Of a stretch of 64,000 nt of DNA, positions 5,623 to 52,675 are shown one piece after another. The notes beneath the pieces are model-generated. The model had not been told where the DNA came from and made no database searches. It saw only the letters and a program-made list of their open reading frames with translations. Made by a program: the position numbers and the translations under genes. The stretch comes from Casimicrobium huifangae (GTDB lineage: Bacteria > Pseudomonadota > Gammaproteobacteria > Burkholderiales > Casimicrobiaceae), in NCBI RefSeq assembly GCF_009746125.1, contig NZ_CP041352.1:3766436-3830435 (forward strand). Direction: 5' to 3'. The first letter of the stretch is position 1, and each line of letters starts with the position of its first letter.

Positions 5623-6708
5623 ATGAGCCAGGCAGCGATCGATGGCAATCATGGCAGCGGCCGTTATCCGGCAGCGAGCCTGGTGGACTTTTGCGCGGCG
5701 CTCTACCGTGCGTACGGGATGCGCGAGGACATCGCTGCAGTCAGCGCGCGTCTACTGCTCGAGGGAGACCTGCTCGGGCACAGCACGCACGGCTTGGCGC
5801 TGCTGCCGGGCTACCTGAAGGCGCTCGCCGACAGCAGCCTGCGCGCGGCAGGCGATCCGGTGGTGGAAAACCGGCGCACCGTGAGCGAGCTGTGGCACGG
5901 GCAGCGGCTGTCCGGTCTGTGGCTGACCGAGCGCGCGATTGCGCGCGCCAGCGACATGGCGCGCGAGCACGGCACGGGCACCGTCGTCATCAAGCACGCC
6001 CACCACATCGCCTGTCTGGCCGCTTACCTCGAAGCGCCCGCTCGTGCCGGCTTGCTGGTGACAGTGCAAAGCTCCGATCCCTCGGGCGCGAGCGTGGCGC
6101 CGCATGGCGGCATCACGCCGATCATGACGCCCAACCCGATTGCGGTCGGCATCCCGACGGGTAGCGACCCGATCATGATCGACATCTCCAGCTCGATCAC
6201 CGCCAACGGGCCATCGCAGCGGATGATGAAGGAAGGGCGCCGCGCGCCGGGCATCTGGTACGTCGATAGCGACGGTCACGGCAGCACCGACCCGGCGGTC
6301 GCCTTCACCGAACCGAAAGGCGCGCTGCTGCCGCTCGGCGGGCTGGACGCCGGCCACAAGGGCTTCGGGCTCGGGTTGATGATCGAGGCGATGACCGGCG
6401 GCCTCGCCGGCTTTGGCCGCGCTGACCCGCCCGAAGGCTGGGGTGCGACGGTGTTTGTGCAGGTGATTGACCCCGAGGCCTTTGGCGGGCTCAAGGCCTT
6501 CGCGCGGCAGGTCGATCAGTTGCGCGATGCCTCGCACGCGAGCCGCCCGCGACCGGGCGTGGAACGCGTGCGCCTGCCCGGTGAGGGCGGGCTGGCGCGC
6601 AAGGCGCGGCACCTGCGCGACGGCTTGGCACTGCATCCAGCGATCATGCCGGCGCTGCGGCCGCTGGCCGTGGAACGGCATGTCCCGCTGCCGGTGGAAT
6701 CGCCATAG
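5623..6708 (+). CDS. Ldh family NAD(P)-dependent oxidoreductase (malate/L-lactate dehydrogenase type)
   Basis: Member of the YlbC/ComC/MdhC-type dehydrogenase family, which reduces 2-oxoacids with NAD(P)H and is unrelated to Rossmann-fold lactate dehydrogenases. Visible signatures are 'GHSTHGLALLPGYLKAL', 'VVIKHAHHIACLAAYLE' (catalytic His region), 'TPNPIAVGIPTG', 'IDISSSITANG' and 'GHKGFGLGLMIEAMTGGLAG'. The ATG at 5623 follows a good ribosome site (GGGGAAGGACAGCA) and gives 361 residues, the normal family length; the frame upstream to 5248 is antisense to the glycosyltransferase. Substrate may be malate, lactate, ureidoglycolate or sulfolactate; context does not decide. Confidence 0.9.
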   Translation: MSQAAIDGNHGSGRYPAASLVDFCAALYRAYGMREDIAAVSARLLLEGDLLGHSTHGLALLPGYLKALADSSLRAAGDPVVENRRTVSELWHGQRLSGLWLTERAIARASDMAREHGTGTVVIKHAHHIACLAAYLEAPARAGLLVTVQSSDPSGASVAPHGGITPIMTPNPIAVGIPTGSDPIMIDISSSITANGPSQRMMKEGRRAPGIWYVDSDGHGSTDPAVAFTEPKGALLPLGGLDAGHKGFGLGLMIEAMTGGLAGFGRADPPEGWGATVFVQVIDPEAFGGLKAFARQVDQLRDASHASRPRPGVERVRLPGEGGLARKARHLRDGLALHPAIMPALRPLAVERHVPLPVESP

Positions 6709-6717
6709 CCCTGTTTC

Positions 6718-6833
6718 AGCTTTTCGCTGGAAGCCTCATTGGAAAAGGGCAAAGCGCCGTGAAAGCGGCTCAATCGACTTTCTCCAATTTACGGAGCTGA
6801 GCCCAATGCTAGTGGGCGTCTTCGCAGAAAGTC
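6718..6833. repeat. GTCGACTTT-centred inverted repeat, copy A
   Basis: Lies between convergent genes. It opens with AGCTTTTCGC, has GGCTCA-atcgacttt...-TGAGCC around the centre with an inner CTCC/GGAG pair, then GCCCAATGCTAGTGGGC, and closes with CGCAGAAAG. Same layout as copies near 16.6, 40.6, 42.9, 49.1, 52.6 and 62.1 kb. Confidence 0.65.
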
Positions 6834-6894
6834 ATAGCGCAATTTGCTGGCACGCGCTGCCTGTCGCCAGACGCGGCGCGGGCAGGATCTCCGG

Positions 6895-9820: not shown

Positions 9821-11251
9821 TTAGTAGCGATACGAATCCGGCTTGTACGGCCCGGTCTTCGCCACGCCAATGTACGCCGCCTGTTCGGTCGTCAGCTCGG
9901 TCAATTGTGCGCCAAGCTTTGACAGTTGCAGACGCGCGACCTTCTCGTCGAGGTGCTTCGGCAGCACGTAGACCTTGCCGGCCTCATACGCGTCAGGCTT
10001 GGTGAACAGCTCGATCTGCGCGATGGTCTGGTTGGCGAAGCTCGACGACATCACGTAGCTCGGATGACCCGTGCCACAGCCGAGGTTCACGAGGCGACCC
10101 TTGGCGAGCAGGATGATGCGTTTGCCGTCGGGGAAAATCACGTGATCAACCTGCGGCTTGATCTCTTCCCATTGCAGCTTTTCGAGCGAGGCGACGTCGA
10201 TCTCGTTGTCGAAATGGCCGATGTTGCAGACGATTGCCTGATCCTTCATCGCAGCCATGTGAGCGCCGGTGATGACGTCCTTGTTGCCGGTGGCGGTGAC
10301 GAAGATGTCGGCCTTGTCGGCGGCGTAGTCCATGGTGACCACGCGATAGCCTTCCATGCAGGCCTGCAGCGCGTTGATCGGGTCAATCTCGGTGACCCAC
10401 ACCTGCGCCGATAGCGCGCGCAGTGCCTGTGCCGAACCCTTGCCCACGTCGCCGTAGCCGGCAACGACGGCCACCTTGCCGGCGACCATCACGTCGGTGG
10501 CGCGCTTGATGCCGTCCACCAGCGATTCACGGCAGCCGTAAAGGTTGTCGAACTTGCTCTTGGTGACCGAATCATTGACGTTGATGGCGCGGAACAGCAG
10601 CGTACCTTTCGCACTCATCTCGTTCAGGCGATGCACGCCGGTCGTGGTCTCTTCGGTCACGCCGATGATGTGCTTCGCCTTGCGCTCGTACCAGGTCGGG
10701 TCTTCGGCCAGCTTGGCCTTGATCGCGGCGAACAGGCAGCGCTCTTCTTCGCTGGTCGGGTTGGCGATCAGCGAAGCATCCTTGGCGGCCTTCTGTCCAA
10801 GATGCATCAGCAGCGTGGCGTCACCGCCGTCGTCGAGAATCATGTTGGGGCCTTCGCCTTCGCTGCCTTTCGGGCCAAAGTCGAAGATGCGATGCGTGTA
10901 GTCCCAGTAGTCAGCCAGCGTCTCGCCCTTGACCGCAAACACCGGCGTGCCCTTGGCGGCGATGGCGGCGGCGGCGTGGTCCTGCGTCGAGAAGATGTTG
11001 CACGAGGCCCAGCGCACGTCGGCACCGAGTGCCTGCAGCGTCTCGATCAGCACGGCGGTCTGGATCGTCATGTGTAGCGAGCCGGTGATGCGCGCGCCCT
11101 TGAGCGGCTGGCTCTTCGCGAATTCTTCGCGGATGGCCATCAGGCCCGGCATCTCGGTCTCCGCAATGCGGATTTCCTTGCGTCCCCAGTCGGCCAGAGA
11201 CAGGTCGGCGATCACACAGTCAGTAAAAATCTTGTCAGCAACGGCATTCAT
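9821..11251 (-). CDS. ahcY: Adenosylhomocysteinase
   Basis: NAD-dependent tetrameric enzyme that reversibly splits S-adenosylhomocysteine into adenosine and homocysteine, relieving product inhibition of methyltransferases. The 476-residue product matches the family throughout: '[21 protein letters not shown]', '[17 protein letters not shown]', '[19 protein letters not shown]', the NAD site '[18 protein letters not shown]', and the C-terminal '[10 protein letters not shown]' tail ending in the conserved Lys-x-x-x-Tyr-Arg-Tyr. A TTGGAGTGA ribosome site precedes the ATG. The leader holds an SAH riboswitch, so expression is expected to rise when SAH accumulates. Confidence 0.98.
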
Positions 11252-11346
11252 TGTTCACTCCAATCGGAGGTGACGAGAGCCAATGCCGGGGGAGACGGTT
11301 GCAACCGTGCACCGCTCGCAAGCATTGTGACTGCCGTCACCAAAAC

Positions 11347-11436
11347 TGCGAGCGCCGTTGCCACTGAGAAATCGTTCGAGCCTAGCCGGCGGGGTGTGAG
11401 GACCTCGCGCCGGTTGCAGCGCTCCTCGAACGTGCC
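11347..11436 (-). promoter_or_regulatory. S-adenosylhomocysteine (SAH) riboswitch
   Basis: On the minus strand, about 95-185 nt before the ahcY start, CGTTCGAG (11424-11431) pairs with CTCGAACG (11373-11380) to form P1. The 5' side continues GAGGAGCGCTGCAACCGG and the 3' side reads CCGGCTAGGCTCGAAC, the conserved core of the SAH riboswitch, with a variable P2 stem. Further downstream AACGGCGCTCGC (11348-11359) can pair with GAGCGCTG to form the pseudoknot of this class. SAH riboswitches activate ahcY in response to SAH. The match is by eye, but the conserved elements, their order and the gene all agree. Confidence 0.9.
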
Positions 11437-16583: not shown

Positions 16584-16597
16584 AACTGCTGGCTATC

Positions 16598-16713
16598 AGC
16601 TTTTTAGTCAAAGCCCGGTTGGATAAGGGCTCATGGGTATAAACGCCGGCAAGTCGATTTCAGGCGTTTTACCGCCATGAGCCCAATTCGAATGGGGATC
16701 TCCATCGAAAGCC
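16598..16713. repeat. GTCGACTTT-centred inverted repeat, copy B (best stem)
   Basis: Between convergent kup and the symporter gene. The core is a long hairpin: GGGCTCATGGGTATAAACGCC (16627 onward) pairs with GGCGTTTTACCGCCATGAGCCC (to about 16684), with a 15-nt loop containing AAGTCGATTT. Flanks read AGCTTTTTAGTCAAAGCC on the left and TCGAAAGCC on the right. Confidence 0.75.
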
Positions 16714-16752
16714 ATTAACCGTGAATGCCCGGCTGCGGCGCTGCGTTTGCGG

Positions 16753-39654: not shown

Positions 39655-39934
39655 TCTGGCTGATCAGCTTGTTGCCGCAAGCCGCATTCAACTTGGGCTA
39701 GCAGCGCGAATTTTTGATATGGCTTCAATCTGGCCGCGGGTTTCCGGTATCGGACGATTTTTAAATAATCGAAATATGTAACGATCTAAACCCGGAGCGG
39801 CAAGAGCGGCTTTTGGCTACGGCACGAGACTTGCCAACCGCTCAATAGGGCACTAAACCTAGCGCCAGAGCCCCATTCCCAAATGCACCGAAGCCTCCTA
39901 GATCGGGCAAGAAGTAAACGAAAGGAGCACGTCA

Positions 39935-40537
39935 ATGAAGCCCGCTAGTGCAGTTGTCTTGAGTCTCGGGCTGATCGTTAGCGGGTGCGGCTCCGTACCG
40001 CGCAGCGCTAAGGTACCTGTTACGGAATACTTCGCTGGCGGATTGAGCGATACACAGCTGTGCTCAGTTGCCGCAAATGGCCCGTGGACAGAGGCGGATG
40101 GCGTAATTCTGGTTGCCGAATATGAAAAGCGGGTGCGCGCCGGTAGGCTTACGCAGGATCGTTGTCAATCCATTCAAAGACAGGCGCTAATAGACGCTCG
40201 CGCTATAGCCAAAGCAAAGGAAGACGGCGCCGCTGCTGGCAGGCTAATGGGCGACATCATTGGTACCGTCATTGGTGCTGCCGCGGTTGGAGCGGCTGGC
40301 TACTATGGCGCCAAGGCCGGCGCACCAGCTCCAACCTACCAGATTCCCGCGCCAAGCCCTGTTCCGGCCGCCGTGCCGTATGTACCGCCACCACCGCTGA
40401 CCAAAATGCTGCTGACCAGGGAGCCGGACACGTATATGACACAGGGCATTTTCATGGTGACGTGTCGCTACGCAGCGTCATCTACCGTGATCCGCGTGCC
40501 GATGCACCAGCCGTGCCCGGAGAGCGTGCCGAATTGA
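39935..40537 (+). CDS. Small lipoprotein of unknown function
   Basis: 200-residue protein with a lipoprotein signal: hydrophobic residues 6-16 and the lipobox LIVSGC with Cys at residue 18. Residues 28-85 look helical and charged; 'AAAGRLMGDIIGTVIGAAAVGAAGYYGAKAGAP' (about 105-137) is a glycine-zipper-like stretch of the kind found in outer-membrane lipoproteins, followed by a Pro-rich linker and a small Cys-containing C-terminal part. No known family recognised. The preceding 280 bp are distinctly AT-richer than the surroundings, and an AAAGGAG ribosome site precedes the ATG, so it is probably a real, independently transcribed gene. Confidence 0.72.
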   Translation: MKPASAVVLSLGLIVSGCGSVPRSAKVPVTEYFAGGLSDTQLCSVAANGPWTEADGVILVAEYEKRVRAGRLTQDRCQSIQRQALIDARAIAKAKEDGAAAGRLMGDIIGTVIGAAAVGAAGYYGAKAGAPAPTYQIPAPSPVPAAVPYVPPPPLTKMLLTREPDTYMTQGIFMVTCRYAASSTVIRVPMHQPCPESVPN

Positions 40538-40569
40538 GGCGCCTTCATGACGATAGAAAGGACGCTTGT

Positions 40570-40650
40570 AAGCTTTCTGGATTTGAGGAAAGTCGACTTC
40601 TGGCATTTTGAGCGGTCAGCCCATGTTCAGTGGGCATAAAAGTCAATTGT
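40570..40650. repeat. GTCGACTTT-centred inverted repeat, copy C (short)
   Basis: Between the convergent lipoprotein and TPM genes: AGCTTTCTGG, then AAAGTCGACTTCTGG, then GCCCATGTTCAGTGGGC, closing with AAAAGTC. Shorter than the other copies; the left arm is partly missing. Confidence 0.55.
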
Positions 40651-42795: not shown

Positions 42796-42907
42796 CGCTT
42801 CCCCCGTGTTCCGGGCTGCGCCGTTGCGTCGCAGCCGCGTCCGGTCGCCCTGTGAACGTCCGTGCCCGTGCAGACGCAAACGATCCCTGCACTGCGACGT
42901 CAGGGTA

Positions 42908-43027
42908 GCATCTTTTTCGTCAAAAGCGCAACGACATTGGGCTTGGCACGTGATTTACCACGTTATCGACTTTTCGGTGATTTGGCCAGTAAGCCCTTGT
43001 CGAATAAGGGTTTCAGCAAAAAGCTGT
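42908..43027. repeat. GTCGACTTT-centred inverted repeat, copy D
   Basis: Left end CATCTTTTTCGTCAAAAGC, right end CAGCAAAAAGCTG; between them GGGCTT...ATCGACTTT...AAGCCC and CCCTTGTCGAATAAGGG. Ends six bases from the PanE-like stop codon, between two genes on the minus strand. Confidence 0.65.
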
Positions 43028-43032
43028 CAAGC

Positions 43033-44040
43033 TCAATAAAGTCCGCGCACTCGCCCGGTGAGCCGTACCAGGCCGAACAGCGCGCTGGTGTAAGGCGTCG
43101 GCACACCAACTTTGGCGCCGATTTCGACCACCGCTGCCACCAGCGCATCAAGCTCGATGCTGCGGCCGGCCTCCACGTCCTGCAGCATTGAGGTTTTCAT
43201 GGCGCCAAGCTTGCGGGTGACGGCATGACGCTCGTCGGGCGATTGCGCGATCGGGATGCCAATCTGCTCGCCGATCGCCTTCGCCTCGCGCATCACCGCA
43301 GAGCAGAATTCGCGGGTCAACGGGTCGTCGAGAATCAGATCGGTGGTGGCGCCGGTGATCGCTGACACCGGGTTCATCGTCATGTTGCCCCACAGCTTGA
43401 ACCAGACATCGCGCTGGATATCCGCGCTCGCTTCGGACTCAAAGCCCGCTGTCGTGAGCGCTGTATGCAACGCCGACAGACGCGCGCTGATGCCGCCCTG
43501 CGCAACACTTTGCGCCGCTCCGTCCGGTTCGCCAATGATGAGCCGCGTACCCATCTTGTGCCGGATCAGCCCCGGCGCATCCACCGAACACGCAGCGTGC
43601 ACCACGCAGCCAATCACGTTGGCCGACGGAATGCTGGCGGCAATCTCACCGGTAGGGTCGATGCTCGCCAGCGCGGTACCGGCGAGCGGGCGGTCGCTGC
43701 GCTGGAAAAACCACCACGGCACGCCGTTCATCGCCGTTAGCACTATCGTGTTCGGTCCGATCAGCGGGTTCGCGGCCAGCGCCGCGTCACGCAACCCCTG
43801 CGATTTCACGGCGACGATCAGCAGGTCGGGAAATGCGTCCGCCGTGAGATCGCCCGGCTTGTCACTGGCCGCGACTTTTACCGCTGCCGTCTCACCCGCT
43901 TCGATCAAGCGCAGCCCTTCGGCGCGAATCGCCGCCAGCGTCGCGCCGCGCGCCAGCACGCTCACCGCATGCCCCGCCTGCGCGAGCTTGACGCCCATCC
44001 AGCCGCCGATGGCGCCGGCGCCCAGCACACAAACTCTCAT
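43033..44040 (-). CDS. Ketopantoate reductase family protein (PanE/ApbA-like)
   Basis: 335-residue NADPH-dependent oxidoreductase. 'VCVLGAGAIGGWMGVKLAQAGHAVSVLARG' is the N-terminal dinucleotide fold; 'LLIVAVKSQGLRDAALAANPLIGPNTIVLTAMNGVPWWFF' follows and the C-terminal helical domain contains 'FKLWGNMTMNPVSAITGATTDLI' (conserved Lys and Asn) and 'SMLQDVEAGRSIELDALVAAVVEIGAKVGVPTPYTSAL', with the catalytic Lys replaced by an equivalent position in many paralogues. Several PanE-like paralogues act on other 2-oxoacids; linkage to an FAD hydroxyacid oxidase (4-bp overlap) suggests catabolism rather than pantothenate synthesis. Confidence 0.88.
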   Translation of the reverse strand: MRVCVLGAGAIGGWMGVKLAQAGHAVSVLARGATLAAIRAEGLRLIEAGETAAVKVAASDKPGDLTADAFPDLLIVAVKSQGLRDAALAANPLIGPNTIVLTAMNGVPWWFFQRSDRPLAGTALASIDPTGEIAASIPSANVIGCVVHAACSVDAPGLIRHKMGTRLIIGEPDGAAQSVAQGGISARLSALHTALTTAGFESEASADIQRDVWFKLWGNMTMNPVSAITGATTDLILDDPLTREFCSAVMREAKAIGEQIGIPIAQSPDERHAVTRKLGAMKTSMLQDVEAGRSIELDALVAAVVEIGAKVGVPTPYTSALFGLVRLTGRVRGLY

Positions 44041-49166: not shown

Positions 49167-49190
49167 CCGTAGCTGGTCTGCCAGCTACGG
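49167..49190 (-). terminator. Hairpin over the stop codon of the dockerin-like gene
   Basis: CCGTAGCTGG-TCTG-CCAGCTACGG, a perfect 10-bp stem. The TAG stop codon of the minus-strand gene is inside one arm. No T tract follows, so intrinsic termination is uncertain. Confidence 0.5.
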
Positions 49191-52100
49191 CATCAACCCG
49201 GCCAGCCACGCCTCAATCTCCATGGCAGTGGACCGCGCTCGTGGCGCCGGGCCCAACGCATCAGTGACCAGCGCATTGCCGCGCAGCCCGAGCATGTAGC
49301 GCAGGATCAGCAGGCCGTCGGTTGCAGCGTCAATCGAGCCGTTGCCGTCGATGTCGAGCAGCGTGTCCAGCGAGGCGAGATAGGTCGCGATCGCCACCGG
49401 GTCGGTAACTGCCGCACCGCTGACCGCCAGATTCGTAGTCAGCGCGCCGTTACGCAGCCCCTGCATGTAGCGCACGATGATCTGGCCGTCAGTGGGGCCG
49501 TGATAAAGCGTCGCAGCCGAACTGCCATCGACATTGAGGGTCGGCACAAAACGGGCATTGACACTCTGCGCCGCGGTGACATTGCTCAGCATGCAGGTGG
49601 AGCCGATGCAACTGCCGCTCCAGCCGGCAAACAGGTACGCCGGGTTGGCAACGGCCGTGCAGGTGGCGCTGCTGCCCTGGTTCACCGGGTTCGGCGTGCA
49701 GCTCGCCGTCCCGCCAGCGAGCGGGCTCACCGTCACCGTGATGTTGTAGGTATTGGGCGGCGTGGCGAATTGCACTTTCAGCGGTGCGAAGCCGAGGGTC
49801 GTCAGCACATCCTCGACGACGACATAGAGGTCGTAGGCGGTGTCGGCGGTCAGGCCAGTCACCGGGAAATTGGTCGCGACGCCCTGCGTCATGGCGCCAC
49901 TGCCGGACGCGACGATTGTGACACCGGCATAGGAAACCGCCGCTTTCACCTGGGCGAAGGTTGGCGCCTGCGCGTTGCGCGCGACGACGATCCACTCGCC
50001 CTTGCCGGTTTCGCGACTGGTCGCGGTCAAAGTCGTGGTGGTTTGGGTGGTGCCTGACACGGCAGCAGCAGCCAACACGGGCGGCAAATCGGTGTGCTGC
50101 ACCGTGCCGCTGCGATTGCCGGCGTGAAGCGTGCGCGCCGCTTCCTGTGCCTGCGCTACTGCGGTGAATTTGAGTGGCCCCTGCCCGGTGGCCTGCGGCC
50201 CGCTGCCAGTCCAGCCTGCCGTGATGCTGGACCAGCTGGCACAGCCATCGCCGCTCAGCGCAACGCCGGATTCGGTCCCCGCGACCAGCGTGCCCAAGGC
50301 ATCGATGCTGAGCGACAGCGTATTGGCACTGCCCGGCAGTGCGGCGCAGGCAGACCAGCTTGTGCCGCTGTCGGCGCTGACGAACACGCCGCCGCCCATC
50401 GTCGCCGCATAGAGCGTGGCAACCGCAGCCGGCTTGATCGCCAGCGCCGTGACGCGCAGGTTGGCGGGTTGCGCGGCTACCGCCGTCCATGCCGTACCGC
50501 CAGTCACCGTTCTGTAAATGCCCGCGCCGTCGACACCGGCGTAGAGCGTGTTGGCCGCCAGCGGATCGGGCAGCAGCGCAGTCACCGGCATCGTAGTGGC
50601 AACAGGCAGCCCGCTATTGGCGATACTCCAGTTGCCACAATCGTTTGACTTGAACACGCCCGCCTCGGTGCCGACGACCAGCGTGCCAGTCGCGTTCATC
50701 GCCATCGAATTGATGCGCAAGCTGCCCAGACCGGTACTGCCGCATGCGGCCCAGGTAGTGCCGGCGTTGGCACTCTTGTACACACCACCGCCACGCGACG
50801 CCGTGTAGTAGCGCGTACCGTTGGCAGGATCGACCAGCAGCGCCGTCAGCCAGAGATTGCCGGGCTGGGTGGTGGCTGCGACCCATGCGTTGCCGCCATT
50901 GGTGCTGCGCCAGATGCCGGAGCCATACAGCGCCGCGGTCACTATTTGCGGATTCACTGCGTCGACCACAATCGCCGTCACTGCGCGGCTGGTGTCAAAG
51001 GTCACACTGTTATCGGTGGAGGTGGACGCGGTGTTGAAGCTGCTGGTGCTGCGGTCAGTCGCCACACTGGCTGGAATGCTGGCGCGGATGGTCTCGCCGC
51101 TGGCGGCACCGGTCACGGCGACCGTAAAGTGCCGGTGGTCGCCGCTGTCGGTGACGGTCACGCCGGGCGCCGCCGCCATGCCGGAAATGACCACATCGGT
51201 ATTGATGAAGCCGTTCACCGGGGCACTGAAGACGACATCAAAATTGATCGGACTGGTCGAGGCGGGATCGGTCTGCGCGGCGGCCTGATTGATGGTGACG
51301 CTGAGTGGCTGGCAGGTGGCAGTCGCGTTGGCTACCTCAACCCCGGTATTGCTCTTGATGCGCACCGCGAGGGCGCCGTAGAGCCCGTTGATGGTCAGCA
51401 CCTGGGTGGCTCCGGGTGTGCCGGCGGCTGTCAGCAAAAACGGGCCGCTGGTGAGGAAAACGCTGTTCTGGTAAAGCTCCCACGTGTAGTTCACCGACAT
51501 TGCGCCGCCGATATTGGTGATGGCGAACTGCGAGTTGGCCGAGGCGTCGCAGGTGCCAGCCACCGTAATCACCGGCGGCGCCTGATAGACCACCGTGTTG
51601 TCGTTGGACGTGGACGCGAAGTTGCCAAGTCCATCGTTGACCGCCTGCGCCGCGTCTTGCGGAATGGTCACGCGGACAGTTTCGAGATCACGAACACCAT
51701 TGATCGCGATGGAAAACGTGCGCTGGTCGCCAGAATCCGTCAATGTCACGATGGGCGTATTGGCCATGCCAGTGATCACCAGGTCGCTGGCAGTGAAGCC
51801 GGTCACCGCCCGCGAGAAGACGGCGGTGAACATGATCGGCAGCGCATTCGCCGGATCAGCTTGACCCGCCGCCTTGTTGATCGTGACCCGCGGCCGTTCA
51901 ACGCAGGTGGCCGACGCGTTGGCCACCTGCGCGCCGTTCTGGTCCTTGACACGAACCTCGATAACACCGAACAGCCCGTTGATAGTGAGCACCTGGTGAT
52001 CGCCAGGCGTTCCGCTCGCAGTCAGCAGGAAGGGGCCGCTGGTGAGGAAAACACTGTTCTGGTAAAGCTCCCATGTGTAGTTCACCGTCATCGCGGTGCC

Positions 52101-52280
52101 GATATTGGTGATGGTGAAGGACGAATTTGCCAGCGTGTCGCAGGTGCCAGCCACAGTGATGATCGGCGCCGCTGACGCGCCGGATGCGGTCAATGCAAGG
52201 CACGCAGCAAGCAACGCAAGCGCGCTGCGCGCCTGTGCATGCAAACGGTTCAGCCAATCTTTAGCCCAGCTGTATGACAT
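49185..52280 (-). CDS. Large secreted multidomain protein with dockerin-like C-terminus
   Basis: About 1031 residues from the ATG at 52280 (GGGGAT ribosome site); the frame extends to 52334. A Sec signal (ending ASGASA) is followed by two tandem copies of an A+B module: A is a beta-sandwich around 'NYTWELYQNSVFLTSGPFLLTA', B an Ig-like domain with 'VTINKAAGQADPANALPI' and 'TVTDSGD'. Residues about 430-730 are BNR/sortilin-like propeller blades ('GIWRSTNGGNAW', 'GVYKSANAGTTW', 'GVFVSADSGTSW'), then a fibronectin-like domain, a 'GGTASCTPNPV...GWSGSC' bacterial repeat, and two dockerin type I-like repeats ('DIDGNGSIDAATDGLLILRYMLGL'). Likely extracellular adhesion or glycan interaction; no catalytic domain seen. 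Confidence 0.85.
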   Translation of the reverse strand: MSYSWAKDWLNRLHAQARSALALLAACLALTASGASAAPIITVAGTCDTLANSSFTITNIGTAMTVNYTWELYQNSVFLTSGPFLLTASGTPGDHQVLTINGLFGVIEVRVKDQNGAQVANASATCVERPRVTINKAAGQADPANALPIMFTAVFSRAVTGFTASDLVITGMANTPIVTLTDSGDQRTFSIAINGVRDLETVRVTIPQDAAQAVNDGLGNFASTSNDNTVVYQAPPVITVAGTCDASANSQFAITNIGGAMSVNYTWELYQNSVFLTSGPFLLTAAGTPGATQVLTINGLYGALAVRIKSNTGVEVANATATCQPLSVTINQAAAQTDPASTSPINFDVVFSAPVNGFINTDVVISGMAAAPGVTVTDSGDHRHFTVAVTGAASGETIRASIPASVATDRSTSSFNTASTSTDNSVTFDTSRAVTAIVVDAVNPQIVTAALYGSGIWRSTNGGNAWVAATTQPGNLWLTALLVDPANGTRYYTASRGGGVYKSANAGTTWAACGSTGLGSLRINSMAMNATGTLVVGTEAGVFKSNDCGNWSIANSGLPVATTMPVTALLPDPLAANTLYAGVDGAGIYRTVTGGTAWTAVAAQPANLRVTALAIKPAAVATLYAATMGGGVFVSADSGTSWSACAALPGSANTLSLSIDALGTLVAGTESGVALSGDGCASWSSITAGWTGSGPQATGQGPLKFTAVAQAQEAARTLHAGNRSGTVQHTDLPPVLAAAAVSGTTQTTTTLTATSRETGKGEWIVVARNAQAPTFAQVKAAVSYAGVTIVASGSGAMTQGVATNFPVTGLTADTAYDLYVVVEDVLTTLGFAPLKVQFATPPNTYNITVTVSPLAGGTASCTPNPVNQGSSATCTAVANPAYLFAGWSGSCIGSTCMLSNVTAAQSVNARFVPTLNVDGSSAATLYHGPTDGQIIVRYMQGLRNGALTTNLAVSGAAVTDPVAIATYLASLDTLLDIDGNGSIDAATDGLLILRYMLGLRGNALVTDALGPAPRARSTAMEIEAWLAGLMP
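51309..51575 (-). repeat. Internal direct repeat, second A module
   Basis: Encodes the second ~89-residue beta-sandwich module (starting ITVAGTCDASANSQ). DNA is near-identical over long runs to 51900-52166, for example around GGTGAGGAAAACGCTGTTCT, so the duplication is recent or homogenised. Confidence 0.85.
51900..52166 (-). repeat. Internal direct repeat, first A module
   Basis: Encodes the first A module (starting ITVAGTCDTLANSS). Partner of 51309-51575. The ~100-residue B modules between and after them are also homologous but more diverged. Confidence 0.85.
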
Positions 52281-52543
52281 GCTCATCCCCGTCATCGATT
52301 GCAAACCACCCGGCACCGTCGGCGCGGGCAGCATCGCCGCAGCAGCCTTAGTCTGGTGTGGCTCGCAACTATAGTGCGGCCATCGCCCAGCAGTGAGCCA
52401 GGCATGTCAAAACTGCATGGCTGGCAGAGCGTCTTCCGGGAAATAATGCGGTCGTGACATTGTTAGCGAAGCGTCGCATCGGCGGTCCGTCGCGCGCAGG
52501 CGACTGACGACCTGGGCGATCAAAGGCAATGCAAAAGCAGCGA

Positions 52544-52660
52544 CATCTTTTTCATGAAAGCATTATCCAATAGGGCATGCAGGTCGATTTCAATTGAAGT
52601 CGACTTTCTGGCTTTTACGCTATCCAGCCCTTATCCAGTAACGCTTTCGCAAGAGAGCCA
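52544..52660. repeat. GTCGACTTT-centred inverted repeat, copy F
   Basis: In the 395-bp divergent spacer between the dockerin-like and double-GNAT genes. Left end CATCTTTTTCATGAAAGC, inner TTATCCAATAGGGC / GCCCTTATCCAG, and a 22-bp near-perfect palindrome (52583-52604) built of GTCGATTTCAA and TTGAAGTCGAC. Right end CGCTTTCGCAAGAG. The rest of the spacer shows no gene. Confidence 0.65.
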
Positions 52661-52675
52661 TATCCGGAAACTGAC

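Follow-up and report, generated by a model that had tools for sequence, protein, structure and literature searches.

The intergenic repeat beside kup in the 64,000-nucleotide stretch analyzed here (the window) is one copy of a near-palindromic, 122-bp element that is dispersed along the chromosome of the focal genome (G000; 4.47 Mb, single contig), and the members of this family look more like protein-bound, chromosome-organizing sites than like jumping repeats or folded RNAs. Judging from sequence comparisons, each element is probably a dyad-symmetric DNA site of fixed length for a putative protein, and its role would be architectural or topological. The elements share a fixed geometry, mirror symmetry, and position-specific conservation; they show no covariation in a fixed register in G000, occur in dialects whose base composition agrees in phase, are evenly spaced in G000, and keep their positions in a sister species (G011).

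The first-pass annotation described a dispersed intergenic inverted-repeat family with seven places in the window. Related sequence is present at all seven and is complete or nearly so at six. At 40570 to 40650 there is element sequence, but it is the right part of a copy whose left part lies at 39663 to 39717. The layout given then (a AGCTTTTT left end, AAAGC, GGGC, a TCGA center, GCCC, and a CGCAAAAAGC right end) was correct, and the stem sequences of the focal copy (GGGCTCATGG and CCATGAGCCC) are found there; the unit, put at about 80 to 120 bp, is tighter in the alignment, i.e., about 122 bp and nearly gap-free. The features are as follows (none is assigned a strand; signs in parentheses are strands of matches to R1, a sequence-only model built from aligned copies).

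16595..16716, focal element, 122 bp; R1, 73.4 bits (+) and 70.8 bits (-); E = 4.8e-21 and 3.2e-20
16600..16603, CTTT skeleton word, element positions 6 to 9; highly conserved columns in 79 copies
16611..16612, AA, positions 17 to 18, with A18 common to three dialects; focal sequence and column conservation
16627..16630, GGGC dialect word of the left arm, positions 33 to 36; alignment columns
16641..16643, A/T patch, positions 47 to 49, with a G+C fraction at 48 to 49 of 0.00 to 0.01; column composition
16654..16657, central TCGA, positions 60 to 63, dyad center; alignment columns
16668..16670, A/T patch of the right arm, positions 74 to 76; column composition
16681..16684, GCCC dialect word of the right arm, positions 87 to 90; alignment columns
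16708..16711, AAAG skeleton word, positions 114 to 117; alignment columns
6715..6836, element directly past the stop of a plus-strand gene ending at 6708; R1, 66.3 bits
39663..39717, left part of the split element; R1, 17.9 bits (+, positions 1 to 55) and 20.3 bits (-)
40580..40642, right part of the same split element; R1, 22.5 bits, positions 47 to 105
42907..43028, element 5 bp past the stop of a minus-strand panE-like gene (43033 to 44040); R1, 72.1 bits
49057..49177, element in a convergent gap, with a degraded right end; R1, 45.0 bits (+) and 28.2 bits (-)
52542..52662, element in a divergent gap; R1, 60.5 bits
62061..62182, element abutting the stop of a minus-strand dsbE-like gene; R1, 64.6 bits

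The window thus lists seven elements, one of them split by an insertion. The focal element starts 11 bp past the kup stop codon and, being near-palindromic, is matched on both strands. In the split element, approximately 865 bp (39716 to 40579) is inserted between the two parts, and the G011 counterpart is intact. The insertion holds a 200-amino-acid open reading frame (39935 to 40537) with no NCBIfam or Pfam match. A 1,049-amino-acid protein encoded at 49185 to 52334 (minus strand) has weak matches to F510_1955 glycosylhydrolase and InlB repeats, and the segment of about 3.5 kb that carries its gene is absent from the collinear place in G011. Farther on, at approximately 119518 to 119754 of the window plus the DNA that follows it (G000, about 3.886 Mb), self-alignments at 27-bp steps suggest a 27-bp tandem repeat.

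Thirty copies aligned over 122 positions almost without gaps (among 30 loci fetched by blastn, L013 and L026, with no element seen, the duplicates L020 and L027, and the half element L007 had been excluded before alignment). Full-length copies (n = 103) measure 122 bp in 51 cases, 121 bp in 41, 120 bp in 10, and 119 bp in 1. In the 30-copy alignment the words CTTT, GGGC, TCGA, GCCC, and AAAG form invariant or nearly invariant columns at 27-bp steps, and among 79 copies the information resides in such mirror-image words, the positions between them being near random. The mirror layout about TCGA comprises CTTT (positions 6 to 9), A18, and the A/T-only positions 48 to 49, each with its mirror image, and the element ends in terminal inverted repeats (CAGCTTTT/AAAAGCTG). 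Positions 48 to 49 and their mirror contain almost no G or C; in the left patch, A predominates in 47 copies and T in 32, and covariation between patches 47 to 49 and 74 to 76 was not significant (Fisher P = 0.067; 79 G000 copies). Most copies score nearly equally with R1 on either strand. The strongly conserved part consists of short words that mirror one another at fixed spacing, which is a symmetry at the level of DNA.

The focal copy alone retrieved 41 blastn matches from G000 at E values up to 10, including itself (best nonself match, E = 1.6e-6; 71% over 91 bases), and R1 gave at least 150 matches counting both strands (1,080 candidates; 150 scored), all with E values below 1e-14. In a 464-kb sample whose choice did not depend on the element (the window and 20 stretches, each of 20 kb), 90 matches corresponded to 45 places and 44 elements, two places being halves of one element. 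A contiguous 400-kb region (1.0 to 1.4 Mb) contained 31 elements (one partial), while the reversed sequence used as a control contained none. The skeleton CTTT-N49..51-TCGA-N49..51-AAAG occurred 194 times in G000 and twice in the backward control. From the sampled stretches, including 160 kb beyond the window and with overlaps removed, we estimated by hand approximately 380 elements per genome. The expectation of further copies, and of many per genome, was thus borne out by the counts (44 in 464 kb; 31 in 400 kb versus 0 in the control).

The predicted intergenic location also held. In the 464-kb sample, for which gene context came from a simple hexamer gene caller, 43 of the 45 places are clearly intergenic (19 tandem, 15 convergent, and 9 divergent), one lies inside a called gene, and one lies at a stretch edge. 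In two contiguous regions totaling 624 kb (the 400-kb region and 224 kb from the window onward, which share the window and two 20-kb stretches with the 464-kb sample), all 50 elements are intergenic; tandem gaps (n = 325) hold 20 of them, convergent gaps (n = 82) hold 17, and divergent gaps (n = 88) hold 13. Elements occupy 10% of all gaps there and, in the 464-kb sample, about 28% of gaps of at least 120 bp. A gene 3' end adjoins 37 of the 50 elements (median distance, 21.5 bp; 25 within 30 bp). Convergent gaps are overused for their length (chi-square P = 0.003; P = 0.0005 with element length subtracted). Within tandem gaps, the element is nearer the upstream stop in 16 of 19 cases in the 464-kb sample (binomial P = 0.004) and in 14 of 20 in the 624 kb.

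Along the G000 chromosome, the elements are more evenly spaced than expected by chance (i.e., underdispersed), as judged against random choice of intergenic gaps. The coefficient of variation (CV) of the distances is 0.56 for the 31 elements at 1.0 to 1.4 Mb (P = 0.0006; P = 0.0002 using gaps with a 3' end) and 0.54 for the 19 elements of the 224-kb region (P = 0.005; P = 0.006 using gaps with a 3' end). Counts in the 20 scattered 20-kb stretches, two of which lie within these regions, have a variance-to-mean ratio of 0.47 (P = 0.026). Even spacing was also found in G010, a genus member with a different dialect (CV, 0.61; 22 elements; P = 0.0098), and in G011 (CV, 0.61; P = 0.023), where it is not independent of G000; in G012, another genus member with its own dialect, spacing was not significantly even (CV, 0.72; 11 elements; P = 0.20). 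Mean distances are 12.4 and 11.5 kb in the two G000 regions, 8.9 kb in G010, and 18.3 kb in G012.

Most positions are retained in the sister species. The 19 elements of the 224-kb region include 15 in sequence collinear with G011 (blocks 74 to 92% identical), two at inversion breakpoints, and two outside the compared contig; the kup element, which lies outside it, has a counterpart in L031. Thirteen of the 15 collinear sites are occupied in G011 (12 through model matches and one, whose arm word differs, by eye), two are without an element, and one weak G011 match (17.9 bits; B185709) is without a listed G000 partner. In ungapped comparisons, the 12 ortholog pairs have identities of 0.80 in the core and 0.43 in the spacers, versus 0.71 and 0.33 for nonorthologous pairs; spacer identity exceeds a z score of 3 in 4 of the 12 pairs and not in the other eight. 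On the 3' side of kup, a CAGCTTT end lies 2 to 13 bp past the stop in 6 of 14 orthologs, and a longer variant is present in a seventh. On the 3' side of dsbE (approximately 157 bp; 17 orthologs), inspection by eye, which could miss other dialects, showed an element in six (one a variant) at varying offsets and none in 11.

Three arm-word dialects, represented by G000, G012, and G010, are built on one 122-position frame. Those of G012 (10 full copies) have GGTCGTT-type arms, and those of G010 (23 copies) have GGC-type arms and a weaker, TTTCGAAA-like center. The G+C profiles of the three dialects are correlated (r = 0.46 to 0.71) and agree in phase at 9.75 to 10 bp (P = 0.0018; block shuffle P = 0.003), and the G+C fraction at positions 48 to 49 is 0.0 in all three. 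Taken alone, the G000 profile peaks at 8.0 bp, with 9.75 bp close behind (8.25 bp with the main words masked). R1 matches (E = 0.001; filters lose weak matches) occurred in 16 of 17 genomes of the genus and in none of 43 others. Counts of the skeleton pattern far exceeded the control in 10 of the 17 genomes, equaled or slightly exceeded it in seven, and stayed at background in the 43 others (0 to 5, versus 0 to 4 in the control). No element was found in G016, and few were found in G008, G002, and G009. As far as the R1 and skeleton searches reach, the family appears to be limited to one genus; strongly diverged relatives could be missed.

Elements also lie at rearrangement junctions. A 73-kb inversion between G000 (3.908 to 3.981 Mb) and G011 contig C53 has elements at both breakpoints in both genomes, and, by our reading of the stretch compared with G012, three of four synteny junctions carry an element in one genome or both; for five of six junctions with an element, a hand-calculated binomial probability is about 0.01. 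This association is suggestive only, because 10% of all gaps, and about 28% of those of at least 120 bp, bear elements and operon borders are favored by both.

We infer protein binding, DNA wrapping, and an architectural role for the elements. The fixed length of about 122 bp corresponds to about 12 helical turns. The element is probably neither a folded RNA nor a currently mobile repeat. A symmetric protein assembly may bind the center and both arms and bend or wrap the approximately 122 bp, with A/T-rich patches in a phase of about 10 bp setting narrow minor grooves against the protein. A dimeric DNA-binding protein, with a specificity that varies from one species to another, would recognize the arm palindromes (i.e., the dialect word); such a dedicated protein would be the simplest addition to a reader of the skeleton. 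Sites about every 12 kb in G000, often downstream of genes and densest in convergent gaps, could then serve as nodes of chromosome architecture or supercoiling. A bolder version, which we offer tentatively, is a genus-specific architecture code in which approximately 380 evenly spaced 122-bp sites would be wrapped by a putative dedicated protein, the reader and the sites would switch dialect together, and the sites would act as hinges of rearrangement.

The family might instead be an old, nonautonomous one of the MITE or REPIN type that a transposase mobilized in trans, that expanded early in the history of the genus, and that later decayed or was domesticated, with each dialect reflecting a different mobilizer. 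Hundreds of intergenic copies, the terminal inverted repeats (CAGCTTTT/AAAAGCTG), the limitation to one genus, and the variation in presence and offset at dsbE between species would fit such a history, as would the distribution of Y1 (HUH) transposase genes, which occur in 15 of the 17 genus genomes and were not found in G016 (no element) or G008 (few elements). However, G002 and G009 have Y1 genes and few detected elements, and the positions are retained in G011. Among 103 distinct full-length G000 copies (the 79 copies and those of the 31 in the 400-kb region that are full-length, with duplicates removed), the best pair is 67% identical, the median is 52%, and no pair exceeds 80%; since no pair is above 67%, no recent copying is seen. 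The best pairs in G010 (66%; 23 copies) and G012 (60%; 10 copies) are no closer. Moreover, plain decay would not leave words and length intact next to near-random spacers. We regard a mobile origin of this kind as unlikely.

A REPIN/RAYT system in particular was ruled out. An element lies within 500 bp of only 1 of 21 Y1 matches (21 of 44 listed; contig ends truncated some loci, and models from other species were used for G003, G006, and G015), no closely similar copies are seen among the 103, and the GTAG/CGTC-type tag, which PMC3733652 places at the foot of a 20- to 40-bp palindrome, is absent from the symmetrized consensus of three species. The four Y1_Tnp (RAYT-like) matches of G000 (L236 to L239; about 4.155, 2.014, 3.571, and 3.284 Mb; one below the Pfam cutoff) also speak against a link: by our reading of the flanks, each has its own GTAG-headed palindromic repeat alongside, different at each locus, so that the genome apparently has four separate REP/RAYT systems. 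As a separate observation, G008 and G016, in which elements proved few or were not found and a Y1 transposase gene was not found, both have genomes of about 2.5 Mb.

A special case of the DNA-level reading, and included in the probability that we assign to that reading as a whole, is that the elements are strong DNA gyrase sites at which positive supercoils are removed downstream of genes. Gyrase wraps approximately 130 bp around the GyrA C-terminal domains (CTDs), and its cut at the dyad is staggered by 4 bp. The elements resemble such a substrate in their 122-bp length, 4-bp TCGA center, and arm periodicity of 9.75 to 10 bp over the three dialects together, and their 3' and convergent positions, even spacing, and presence at both breakpoints of the 73-kb inversion are compatible with it. 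The Escherichia coli gyrase motif, as described in PMC6379681, spans 130 bp, is symmetric about the 4-bp cut, and has arms with a 10.75-bp G+C periodicity; it is called degenerate there, whereas the element motif carries 85 to 99 bits. The GyrA CTD also hardly differs between dialects (0.972 for G000 versus G012). Since it is 97% identical between a type-1 and a type-2 species, gyrase by itself probably does not recognize the dialect word, and it could at most read the skeleton. Gyrase as the whole explanation is thus, in our judgment, distinctly unlikely, whereas a protein site in the broader sense is probable.

The copies had been described as differing in sequence while keeping their pairing. 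This claim largely failed. Over the 61 dyad pairs of 79 full-length G000 copies (11 of 90 unique copies were dropped as not full-length), standard pairs average 37.20, versus 37.19 with partners shuffled between copies, and per-pair Watson-Crick frequencies are close to the expectation from column composition. Pairing in G012 likewise equals the shuffled level (P = 0.80); weak exceptions are a small excess over all dyad pairs in G010 (P = 0.017; left arm, P = 0.007) and the right local arm in fixed register in G000 (P = 0.027). Judged by the refuting condition that the first-pass annotation itself set (no pairing-preserving substitutions), an RNA stem in a fixed register fails for G000 as a whole.

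Some copies nevertheless fold well. Against dinucleotide shuffles, four of six window copies (the split one was omitted) fold clearly better (z = -2.1 to -4.8, the latter for the focal copy) and two show no clear excess (z = -0.7 and -1.2), and the copies adopt different folds. The mean whole-element energy in G000 is -37.0, versus -34.0 and -34.7 for column-shuffled copies (P = 0.00015 and 0.0019); the corresponding P values are 0.0095 and 0.023 in G010 and 0.022 and 0.12 in G012, and the gain is 2.3 to 3.6 kcal/mol in G000 and G010. Swapping right halves between copies left the fold energy unchanged in G000 (P = 0.42; the values for G010 and G012 were 0.053 and 0.33). Other partner swaps (18 tests, uncorrected) had effects in G000 for the inner stem (P = 0.009), spacers 38 to 56/67 to 85 (P = 0.045), and local arms (P = 0.049 and 0.017), in G010 for local arms (P = 0.005 and 0.04), and in G012 for spacers (P = 0.048). 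The G000 excess sits within the halves, and we read it as weak arm-level palindromy. Since dyad pairing in G000 equals the shuffled level and the excess there lies within halves, the stem seen earlier is largely a consequence of the dyad-symmetric words.

A structured 3'-untranslated-region (3'-UTR) RNA that stabilizes or regulates mRNAs would fit this small folding excess, the copies that fold well, and the 37 of 50 elements that adjoin a gene 3' end. It accords poorly with the absence of dyad covariation, the different folds of different copies, the 13 of 50 elements in divergent gaps, the nearly equal matches on either strand, and the lack of any Rfam family at gathering score (the focal copy had one subthreshold match, at 19.6 bits versus the 88 needed). 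We consider it very improbable. The only Rfam match in the whole window was an SAH riboswitch elsewhere (RF01057; 62.9 bits; 11343 to 11433, minus strand), upstream of an ahcY-like gene (9821 to 11251). Intrinsic (bidirectional) terminators, suggested by the 3'-end position and by a few copies in the genus in which one arm has become a hairpin with a T-run (such as L154 of G003 and L187:1875 of G012), are extremely improbable and were ruled out as a class, because terminator-like sites in two 20-kb window pieces are not above shuffles (12 versus 16.5 and 16 versus 15.7) and touch only two elements there, and the G000 profile shows no T-run after the arm word. A single G000 copy at 3.981 Mb also has a terminator-like hairpin followed by a T-run in one arm word.

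Several observations count against the protein-site reading itself. The folding excess within halves and the dyad pairing in G010 (P = 0.017) leave room for hairpins or cruciforms; the G012 spacing, which is not significantly even (P = 0.20), the 8.0-bp peak of G000 alone, the weaker TCGA center in G010, and the spacers of 8 of the 12 ortholog pairs also fit it less well. Many dispersed bacterial palindromes have been explained as mobile elements or their remains, and the signature of this family is unusual: recent copying is not seen, individual words are constrained at set distances, positions are retained and evenly spaced, and the elements come in dialects. If a protein binds the elements, they would offer a natural system for measuring the spacing and function of chromosomal domain sites, and hundreds of binding sites would have changed specificity between close species.

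The view that this is not a described family was upheld: no Rfam match reached the gathering score, the focal copy had no blastn match in plasmids or E. coli genomes, and our literature search found nothing describing the 122-bp family. ERIC and RIME-type sequences are imperfect palindromes of approximately 100 to 130 bp in intergenic DNA, as is the element; a blastn comparison of the focal copy with 20,395 E. coli records gave no match at 1e-5 (divergent relatives could escape), and position-specific conservation and even spacing may set the element apart. As in MITEs, terminal inverted repeats are present, but recent copies are not seen. The E. coli gyrase motif and strong gyrase sites, compared here by description, share a length of approximately 120 to 130 bp, a dyad about a 4-bp center, and phased AT/GC arms, and they differ from the element in its high information, its species dialects, and a GyrA CTD that does not covary with them. 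A DNA uptake sequence is a short word, whereas the element is a 122-bp intergenic dyad. Like the element, uptake sequences are a genome-wide repeated signal with species dialects (PMC3630211). REP, BIME, and REPIN families likewise comprise hundreds of intergenic palindromic copies and a symmetric double unit, and E. coli BIME-2 holds gyrase cleavage sites (PMC6379681). REPINs are described as having invariant ends and compensatory changes in the hairpin (PMC3116915), whereas the G000 elements are without dyad-wide compensatory changes, and the element differs from all three families in having a fixed length of 122 bp, no GTAG head, no near-identical copies, and locations that are not beside Y1 genes.
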